Shown one piece after another: positions 46,097 to 49,133 of a DNA stretch of 64,000 nucleotides. The DNA lies in contig JAKOUW010000202.1 in assembly GCA_029782365.1 (NCBI GenBank), positions 186,001 through 250,000 on the forward strand. Direction: 5' to 3'. The notes beneath the pieces were generated by a model. That model had not been told where the DNA came from, did no database searches, and saw only the letters and a program-made list of their open reading frames with translations. Both the position numbers and the translations under genes were made by a program. How positions within the stretch are numbered: the first letter of the stretch is position 1; each line of letters starts with the position of its first letter. The stretch is from Chloroflexota bacterium. GTDB taxonomy: Bacteria > Chloroflexota > Anaerolineae > Anaerolineales > UBA4823.

Positions 46097-46375
46097 ATGT
46101 CTCCCAAATCGGATTCACACACATTAAAAATCGCACGTATCCAGACAGGCGTGCGCATGGAAGTAAAAATGTTGAAAGTGCTCAAAGCCCTGGCGGAATA
46201 CCTGGATGTTTCGCTCGGTGATTTACTAGAAGGAATCATCGCTCATGCTTTTGAAAACAAGGCTCCTTTCAGCGCCTCAACCCTCGAAAAAATCGCCATG
46301 TTGAAGAATATTTATGGGATGAATTACGGGGCTGAAGGCAGTCACCAGCTCGTCGAAGAACATCCGCAGGAGTGA
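46097..46375 (+). CDS. Small ribbon-helix-helix-like protein
   Basis: This 92-residue protein shows 'LKIARIQTGVRMEVKMLKVLKALAEYLDVSLGDLLEGIIAHAFENK', a beta-strand followed by two helices, the layout of ribbon-helix-helix (CopG/Arc-type) DNA-binding proteins. A C-terminal extension (about 60-92) contains another short helix. I place the start at ATG 46097 (MSPKSDSH), about 30 nt after the predicted transcription start; the Shine-Dalgarno sequence is weak (AAAAGAAA). A VOC gene follows after 4 nt and a MerB-like gene after that. It is probably the operon's own regulator (inference from fold and from the tandem repeats at the promoter). Confidence 0.6.
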   Translation: MSPKSDSHTLKIARIQTGVRMEVKMLKVLKALAEYLDVSLGDLLEGIIAHAFENKAPFSASTLEKIAMLKNIYGMNYGAEGSHQLVEEHPQE

Positions 46376-46379
46376 TCAA

Positions 46380-46754
46380 ATGGCAGAATTTCCACCCAGC
46401 GGGCTTGCTGTAGTCAGTGTGCGCACCCATCATCTCCACGAAACGCTGATATTTTACCGAGATGTGGTAGGGTTGAATGGGCTGGTTCATCATGGGCACC
46501 AACCCGCCTTCGAGCTGGGGAATGGCGCCTTCCTGGTCATCGTCGAGGCCCACGAGGATGCCCCTCCAACAACCCCGGAGCCGCGCTTTCCTTTGCTGGC
46601 ATTCGCCGTCCAAGATTTGGATGAGGCTGTGGCGCGGCTCAAGTCCCATCGAATTGACCTGCCCTGGGGAATTAACAGCAATCCGCAAAGCCGCTGGGTA
46701 GAATTCTACGATCCCGGCGGAAACCTGATCGAATTGGCGCAGTTTATCCACTGA
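46380..46754 (+). CDS. VOC family protein in the MerB-like operon
   Basis: This 124-residue vicinal-oxygen-chelate protein shows 'AVVSVRTHHLHETLIFYRDVVGL' and 'LAFAVQDLDEAVARLKSHRI', ending 'WVEFYDPGGNLIELAQF' with the metal Glu. It contains no cysteine at all, so it is unlikely to be an ArsI-type C-As lyase. It is clearly paralogous to the VOC protein at 12804-13187 (shared 'LPWGI' and 'FYDPxGNLIELxQ'). AGGAGTGATCAA precedes ATG 46380; the gene lies 4 nt after the regulator and 6 nt before the MerB-like gene. It may act on the same compounds as the lyase. Confidence 0.85.
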   Translation: MAEFPPSGLAVVSVRTHHLHETLIFYRDVVGLNGLVHHGHQPAFELGNGAFLVIVEAHEDAPPTTPEPRFPLLAFAVQDLDEAVARLKSHRIDLPWGINSNPQSRWVEFYDPGGNLIELAQFIH

Positions 46755-46760
46755 GGGTCT

Positions 46761-47519
46761 ATGGAAGATAAGATTTTAATGGGGCTGGGCAGCCTTATTC
46801 AGGCTGCATCATCAGCGCAATGGGAACAAAGCCTTTCAGCCGTTCCCCTTCACAGCCAGGTCAGGTTGAATTTCATGACAGAAATCCATCATCGTACCAG
46901 GTATTTTGTCGTGAGCGAATTGGTCAAAAGCCAGCATCCCATTTCGCCAAAATGGATCTCCAAAGCCCTCGACATTCCCAATCAGCAAGTGGAAAACATT
47001 CTGGGGGATTTGGAGCAAAACCTGTTTTTCCTGGTGCGCAATGAAGAGGGCTGTGTGACCTGGGCATTTCCATTCACCGTCCAACCGACAGCGCATTCGC
47101 TAACATTCAGCAGTGGAGAGCGCTTATACGGCGCTTGAGCAGAAGACGCAGTGGCGTCGTCCTTCGTGCAAGGACGGTTACTTAACAAGCAGCTTGCGGT
47201 GGAAATTTCTACGGAATGCGAGCACTGCGGCCAAAGTCTTCATCTCACAGTGGACAGAGATTTGCAGGTGTTCGTGCGCGAAAACAAGGCAAGGCCTTTG
47301 ATCTTCCTGCCTGATGTGACCTGGAGTACTTTCACAGAGCCCAACATCATTCACGCTTACTGAATGAATTCATTGTTCTTCTGGTCAGAAGAACACGCCA
47401 GGGAATTCAGGCAAAACTCTAGCCAGGTCAACGGCATTTACCTGACATTGGAGCAGTGCGCTTTGCTGACACCCATCACCCAGGGTGGGCTTTTTGCCTT
47501 CAATCGGTTGAGACCTTAG
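46761..47519 (+). CDS. MerB-like organometal lyase with two in-frame UGA (Sec) codons
   Basis: One frame of 252 codons, ended by TAG at 47517-47519, contains exactly two internal UGAs, at residues 126 (47136-47138) and 201 (47361-47363). Reading UGA as selenocysteine gives a full alkylmercury lyase-type protein: an N-terminal winged-helix-like region, 'WAFPFTVQPTAHSLTFSSGERLYGA-U-AED', 'VEISTECEHCGQSLHLTVDRDL', 'NIIHAY-U-MNSLFFWSEEHAREF' and 'GIYLTLEQCALLTPITQGGLFAF'. MerB uses Cys96, Asp99 and Cys159. Here U126 and D129 keep the Cys96-Asp99 spacing, and U201 lies before 'xxxLFFxS' as Cys159 does. Family members cleave carbon-mercury bonds. Hairpins follow each UGA. Sec machinery is not in this window and must be encoded elsewhere. 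TGA ends other genes normally, so the code is not altered. Confidence 0.85.
47139..47158 (+). promoter_or_regulatory. Candidate SECIS hairpin after first UGA
   Basis: Six nucleotides after UGA 47136-47138, GACGC (47145-47149) and GCGTC (47154-47158) form a perfect stem with loop AGTG, containing the G-U typical of bacterial SECIS loops. It is shorter and closer to the UGA than the second hairpin, so it is the weaker candidate. Confidence 0.55.
47374..47395 (+). promoter_or_regulatory. Candidate SECIS hairpin after second UGA
   Basis: Ten nucleotides after UGA 47361-47363, TGTTCTTCTG (47374-47383) pairs perfectly with CAGAAGAACA (47386-47395). With realistic loop size the stem is nine pairs with apical loop GGTC, the same GGUC found in the apical loop of the E. 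coli fdhF SECIS. Distance and loop fit SelB recognition. Confidence 0.75.
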
Positions 47520-48211: not shown

Positions 48212-49133
48212 TCACCTGAGGAGTCCAGCCAATTTCAGCTGCGCGCCCGCCCATGCCTGCCGTGAATCAAAGCCAACCCCGTGATCTTCGATATCCATCC
48301 ACGCAGGTTTGCCGAGGTGGAGCCGGATGGCAGCCTGTGAAACGCCGGCGTGTTTGATGATGTTATTCAACGTTTCCTGGGCGATGCGGAAAAGGCGGGC
48401 TTCTTCTGTTGGGTTGAGCGGCTGGCGCCGTTCCTGCAGGTGGCGCTGCAGAGAGGCGGCGACATCTCCGCCCACAACCATCTGGGGTGCCAGGTGCGAG
48501 ATCAGTTCCTGCATTTCTCCCAACGCGCTCTGGGCGAGCTGTTCCAGCCAGTCGAGCTGCCCGGCAACCTGCCTGCGGTCGCGCTCCAACAAGAGCAGCG
48601 CCGATTGGGTGGTCAGAGTCATACTGAAAATGGTTTGTGTAACCGAATCGTGCATTTCGAGCGCCAATCGCTGGCGTTCGCGGCTGGCGGGCATGGAACT
48701 TAAGCTGTTGGTTGACCCGCTGCAGTTCTGCCACCACGCGCGGCGAATAGAGCTGCATGGCCTGCATGCCCAGGATGGTAAAGCGAAAGGAAAAAAAATC
48801 CAGCTCGCTGGTCAGGAGCAGGAACAGAATCAAGGCGGTTTCCAGGGAGAGGAAAACGATGGCTGTCCAGGGCAGGAGGCGAGTGAGCCAGGCATTTCCG
48901 GCGAACAAAAACAGGCAGGCTGCCAGGGCAAGCAGGGTTTGGCTGATCAGCGGCTGAACTTGGAAAATGATCACCGCGCGCAAAACCGCCGCCAGGAACA
49001 TGAAACCGGCAGCCAGGTAATAGATCCAGCGGTGCAGCCAGATGCCGGTCAATTCTTTGTGCGGGACCGAGATGTTGTTGGAGGCTAAGTGGATTCCCTT
49101 TGTGTAAGCCTCGCGCGTACGTCTCGATATCAT
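48212..49133 (-). pseudogene. Histidine kinase (NarL-partner type), frameshifted and truncated
   Basis: Two overlapping frames together encode one kinase. The first frame (from 49133) gives about six hydrophobic segments and 'VVAELQRVNQQL'. The second frame (from about 48694) continues 'SSMPASRERQRLALEMHDSVTQTIF', the HisKA_3 dimerisation/phosphoacceptor motif, and 'RIAQETLNNIIKHAG' of the ATPase. The frame must change between about 48695 and 48710. The ATPase also stops early: after 'DHGVGFD' the usual G2 'GLGL' and about 35 residues are missing and a stop occurs at 48212. It is therefore probably inactive. No response regulator is adjacent. Confidence 0.75.

Follow-up and report, generated by a model that had tools for sequence, protein, structure and literature searches.

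Does the reading frame at 46761-47519 of the window, the 64,000-nt stretch of Chloroflexota DNA that we analyzed, encode a single protein with two selenocysteines (Sec), and what might such a protein do? The initial annotation of this DNA had singled out one UGA codon in the frame and read the hairpin that follows it as a SECIS element, but named neither the MerB family nor the placement of UGA on two catalytic cysteines. Here we describe the gene, the hairpins that follow both of its UGA codons (Table 1), the fate of these elements across homologues, and the chemistry that the predicted protein may carry out.

Table 1. Coordinates of the MerB-family locus and its putative SECIS elements within the window
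Feature	Position	Strand	Basis
VOC-family (glyoxalase/dioxygenase) gene	46380..46754	+	Pfam Glyoxalase, 37.3 bits; ends 6 nt before the MerB-family start
MerB-family selenoprotein gene (predicted)	46761..47519	+	Open frame with TGA = U; 252 aa, Sec126 and Sec201, TAG stop
First in-frame UGA (Sec126), MerB Cys96 position	47136..47138	+	Alignment to solved MerB structures; UGA in 78 distinct homologues
Hairpin 1, CGTCCTT-CGTGC-AAGGACG, putative SECIS for first UGA	47158..47176	+	26 nt from UGA to loop start; 5-bp core in 78/78
Second in-frame UGA (Sec201), MerB Cys159 position	47361..47363	+	Alignment to solved MerB structures; UGA in 78 distinct homologues
Hairpin 2, TGTTCTTCT-GGTC-AGAAGAACA, putative SECIS for second UGA	47374..47395	+	Perfect 9-bp stem; 7-bp core in 78/78

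A MerB-family gene with UGA at both catalytic cysteine positions

With TGA read as Sec, a single 252-residue frame extends from the ATG at 46761 to the TAG at 47517, and U126 and U201 follow Ala125 and Tyr200, respectively. The UGA at 47361 is the second in frame, as first annotated, with the UGA at 47136 upstream of it. Divergence per codon position is much alike before, between and after the two UGAs, in keeping with the earlier statement that the hairpin lies inside a conserved coding region.

The product matches the Pfam MerB family (PF03243) at 52.8 bits, well above the gathering cut-off of 27. When the family profile is aligned with solved MerB structures, U126, D129 and U201 fall on Cys96, Asp99 and Cys159, three residues reported to be essential to MerB and to be strictly conserved there (PMC8261052); the window protein keeps the aspartate and has UGA, interpreted as Sec, at both cysteine positions. 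The family alignment shows no variation at D129, and C153 and C156, which form a CxxC motif with C153 at the MerB Cys117 position, are near-invariant. The AlphaFold model (pLDDT 93.7, pTM 0.89) matches Hg-bound MerB2 with a Z score of 22.2 over 206 residues at 2.7 Å, sufficient to assign the MerB fold, and MerB crystal structures with Z scores of 19-20; unrelated winged-helix proteins score about 10. The model thus predicts a MerB-like fold for the window protein.

Hairpins follow both UGA codons

The hairpin after the second UGA is laid out exactly as it had been annotated: a 10-nt spacer (47364-47373), the arms TGTTCTTCT (47374-47382) and AGAAGAACA (47387-47395) and the GGTC loop between them (47383-47386), with all 9 bp perfect and 19 nt from UGA to loop. 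RNA folding of 47361-47410 yields the same structure (-14.6 kcal/mol, z -2.5), with only 2 of 200 shuffles as good. Among the 2,006 TGAs on both strands of the window, only this one has a GGTC loop 16-37 nt downstream that sits on a perfect stem of at least 7 bp, and 0.0 TGAs of this kind are expected in shuffled sequence, which led us to reject a chance palindrome. The comparison with the E. coli fdhF element made in the initial annotation holds for the apical GGUC and for its distance from the UGA (18 nt in fdhF, GGTTGCA-GGTC-TGCACC), but not for the helix. The fdhF helix carries a bulged U, whereas hairpin 2 is a continuous 9-bp helix with an A/U-rich stem and no bulge.

The bSECIS model calls for an apical loop of 3-9 nt on a stem of 4-16 bp, a G within loop positions 1-2, in most cases with G or U after it, and 16-37 nt between the UGA and the apical loop (PMC13188914). 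Both elements satisfy it in loop and stem size (4 nt on 9 bp for hairpin 2, 5 nt on 7 bp for hairpin 1), in loop sequence (GGUC and CGUGC) and in spacing (19 and 26 nt). The folding energy of hairpin 1 is unexceptional (z about -1), so the case for this element rests on its conservation and on the reversions described below.

Homologues across about ten phyla

A family-level search returned three relatives with 42-57% identity and two in-frame TGAs in each; a scan of a genome collection yielded 80 further loci, and a phylum-level search added three more with two TGAs. Among the aligned loci, 78 distinct sequences carry both UGAs; they represent about ten phyla. By record title these are Chloroflexota, Acidobacteriota, several former Deltaproteobacteria, Nitrospirota, KSB1, Rokubacteria, Binatota, Bacteroidota, Abyssobacteria and one actinomycete, although every homologue with a named record is a metagenome-assembled genome (MAG) and the phylum labels are MAG labels. 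The scan was unbiased as to codons because its patterns were back-translated to all synonymous codons, but its queries were two peptides, FFWSEEH and another close to the N terminus, and cysteine homologues without FFWSEEH are under-sampled. Four loci depart from the double-UGA pattern: L048, L077 and L096 have Cys then UGA, and in L034 the two sites read Ser and Cys. Both are Cys in distant MerB relatives.

MerB relatives with a single TGA occur across the phylum sample (P0002 and L118-L134). One of them, P0002 (L011:1306-1983, contig C14), is a second MerB-family selenoprotein gene in the genome of the window; its first site is Cys, and its second is a UGA followed by the hairpin TTCTTCC-GGTC-GGAAGAA. 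These relatives share the second-site UGA and the GGTC hairpin with the window gene, but they have Cys at the first site, form a separate clade on the tree and close the hairpin with C-G rather than T-A.

The hairpins are maintained with the UGAs and mostly lost with them

Absence of the hairpin from closely related homologues that carry the UGA would have refuted the initial SECIS reading. Instead, the helix at site 2 is found in every one of the 78 double-UGA sequences, and that reading stands, though without SelB binding data. In synonymous shuffles of these sequences with gene-based codon usage, the 7-bp core of hairpin 2 survived in a mean of 24.6 (maximum 32) and the 5-bp core of hairpin 1 in only 6.9 (maximum 15), against 78 observed for each. 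The codons under hairpin 2 are TTC TTC TGG TCA/TCG GAA GAA with almost no exception, while elsewhere in the double-UGA genes TTT makes up 43% of Phe codons and TCA and TCG together only 33% of Ser codons.

Compensatory changes in homologues, proposed at the outset as a check, were found in hairpin 1, where C-G to T-A double changes occur in four loci, including the window, and a few have T-A, A-T or C-G in place of the outer G-C pair. Within the double-UGA set, hairpin 2 hardly varies. When the single-UGA sister family is included, the closing pair is C-G in place of T-A in 17 of 98 loci and the outer pair is C-G in seven, and these pair changes alter the protein (Trp to Arg and Phe to Leu). 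A 5-bp helix with a GGTC loop is present in 97 of these 98 loci with UGA at site 2, and hairpin 2 is absent from all 12 loci with Cys there.

Three of the four loci that reverted to Cys or Ser at site 1 (L048, L077 and L034) have lost hairpin 1, and all three are nested within the double-UGA clade. The sister loci L048 and L041 are 76% identical; L041 has both UGAs and both hairpins, whereas L048 retains only the second of each. L034, the sole site-2 reversion, has also lost hairpin 2; it carries neither UGA nor either hairpin. It is placed in the window gene's own subclade, and its genome still encodes SelA. Only L096 (826-1581) has Cys at site 1 with hairpin 1 still intact, perhaps reflecting a very recent Sec-to-Cys change or a second role of the element. 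On the tree, four of five independent site-1 pairs and three of three site-2 pairs agree with an association between Sec and hairpin and none speak against it, but there are too few independent events for a sign test to reach significance.

Conservation and covariation thus support double-Sec insertion. In the absence of a protein or selenium measurement, we are still close to certain that the UGAs at 47136 and 47361 both encode Sec. We also hold with high confidence, under the same reservation, that the hairpins are SECIS elements of a double-Sec protein with a MerB fold, a judgment that does not extend to the substrate.

Selenocysteine machinery and the meaning of UGA

The genome of the window encodes tRNA-Sec, SelA, SelB and SelD, which, together with the alignment of UGA to Cys of homologues, meets the sequence-based criterion for a selenoprotein gene. 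The selD frame (L143, contig C30:150842-151777) itself has one in-frame TGA, and hence the selenophosphate synthetase is probably a selenoprotein too. SelA was detected in 24 of 25 homologue-bearing genomes; because it also scores above the cut-off in 321 of the 400 genomes sampled from the phylum, its presence is supportive, not decisive, and was set aside as weak discriminating evidence.

Could the two UGAs be ordinary stops, in a pseudogene, through sequencing errors or between three separate short proteins, with a palindrome that arose by chance? The standard code does cut the frame twice, and the assembly is a draft with 8.67% estimated contamination. However, 78 distinct sequences share these UGAs and hairpins, which are conserved across species, coding constraint persists beyond each UGA, and shuffled sequences contain no such hairpin, leaving this the hardest explanation to credit. 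Alternatively, UGA might be read in another way, through reassignment (to Trp or Gly, for example) or near-cognate suppression, with the hairpins merely aiding read-through. The frames would open with any sense codon at these positions, but relatives have Cys where the UGAs align, the genome holds the full Sec machinery, and the hairpins come after the UGAs and disappear with them. Moreover, the true terminator is a third UGA in 37 of the 78 double-UGA genes, and therefore the codon is not simply reassigned. We regard alternative decoding as very improbable as well, and retain selenocysteine as the meaning of both codons.

Relation to MerB and SaoL

The known selenoprotein closest to the window protein is SaoL (NF040728), which belongs to the Sec-assisted organometallic (SAO) system as its MerB-like organometallic lyase (PMC13188914). 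Both are selenoproteins of the MerB superfamily, and SaoL gives the best NCBIfam match. That match, at 46.3 bits, is far below the 140-bit cut-off, and the two Sec residues of the window protein follow Ala and Tyr, whereas SaoL is listed with a single Sec, within a CU motif. A further difference from SaoL is that homologues of the window gene showed no conserved operon. The MerB equivalog models NF009710 and NF033555 score 38.4 and 37.7 bits against the 193 or 200 required, and members of a 37-sequence family alignment match only the SaoL and MerB models (three NCBIfam models) at E 0.001. Compared with MerB itself (PF03243; PDB 3f0o and 5c17), the window protein shares the fold (Z about 20-22), the catalytic aspartate and both metal-binding positions, but has Sec for both catalytic cysteines, the extra CxxC, extra N-terminal residues and only about 16-18% identity.

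The only MerB selenoproteins that we found in the literature are SaoL and a table line in an earlier review, where a predicted selenoprotein 'MerB2' is given without detail (PMC7435645). A 2026 inventory of prokaryotic selenoproteins has one MerB-like family, SaoL, with a single Sec in a CU motif (PMC13188914), and a MerB with two Sec appears neither there nor in NCBIfam 2026, although an earlier mention in the SAO or selenoprotein-neighborhood literature of Haft is not excluded. Single-Sec MerB-like proteins were thus already known; we found no prior report of a MerB whose two catalytic positions are both Sec.

Proposed chemistry

In the mechanism that we propose, SelB, with tRNA-Sec and hairpin 2, would decode the UGA at 47361 as Sec, and the hairpin at 47158-47176 would serve the UGA at 47136 in an equivalent way. 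The two selenolates of U126 and U201 would then bind R-M+, a soft cation such as methylmercury or a similar organometal, D129 would deliver a proton so that R-H leaves, and the metal would pass to thiols, perhaps via C153/C156. Working as MerB does is the most likely mode for this protein, although lyase activity, substrate and metal hand-off are all inferred. Computations on MerB have product release proceeding through external thiols or thiolates, with Asp99 helping in some pathways (PMC4525700); by inference, the extra CxxC near the Cys117 position could act at this step. In model studies of organomercurial lyases, selones reportedly react faster than their sulfur analogues (PMC11639659). 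It may also be, again by inference, that two selenolates hold Hg(II) tightly enough to hamper turnover.

When ORFs lying up to 6 kb from about 80 loci were grouped into clusters, no mer gene or other partner emerged as a conserved neighbor; a MerR-type regulator, shared by seven loci, and a MarR-type regulator, shared by three, came closest, and one MerR example, judged by eye, has no evident Hg-binding cysteine set. The lack of mer neighbors, the distance from MerB in sequence and the atypical CxxC would all fit a MerB fold repurposed as a metal- or metalloid-binding or redox selenoprotein, with a Sec-Sec pair and CxxC and no lyase activity. This possibility overlaps with the double-Sec MerB-fold reading and was judged separately. 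We think it unlikely, though it deserves to be kept in mind: all three positions (Cys96, Asp99 and Cys159) are kept as U, D and U, and a plain redox pair would not need the invariant D129. We lean toward an organometal lyase, with the activity inferred. As for its natural substrate, mercury is plausible but unproven, given that neither a mer gene nor any other conserved neighbor was found, and we place somewhat less than even confidence in it; other organometals are possible.

The known chemistry of this fold is cleavage of the carbon-mercury bond, and here selenium would replace sulfur at both metal-binding catalytic positions. Standard gene calling ends at residue 125, directly before the first catalytic residue, and the family is for this reason probably absent from merB inventories. 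A double-Sec MerB could be part of the reason why some anaerobic microbes can degrade methylmercury-like compounds and, if active on methylmercury, would provide a testable demethylation gene in Chloroflexota, Acidobacteriota and Desulfobacterota MAGs. More tentatively, a widespread selenium-dependent demethylase of organometals with a Sec-Asp-Sec site could account for part of the anoxic, mer-operon-free breakdown of methylmercury; merB surveys would have missed it because each UGA ends a gene call before a catalytic residue. The family also offers a natural experiment on SECIS function: each gene carries two elements, independent reversions have for the most part removed just the hairpin that belongs to the reverted site, and UGAs serve as real stops in the same genes.

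Genomic neighborhood

The VOC-family gene immediately upstream probably shares a transcript with the MerB-family gene, but the pairing is not conserved: no VOC cluster was found among the neighbors of homologues. Two genes upstream, 46097-46375 encodes a small ribbon-helix-helix-like protein with Pfam scores below cut-off, and a similar small protein lies upstream of the double-UGA gene in two homologue loci, including L041. On the reverse strand, a histidine-kinase-like coding sequence (48212-49133) is divided between two overlapping frames, 48363-49133 and 48212-48694, which, judged from the translations, suggests a frameshift or an assembly error.
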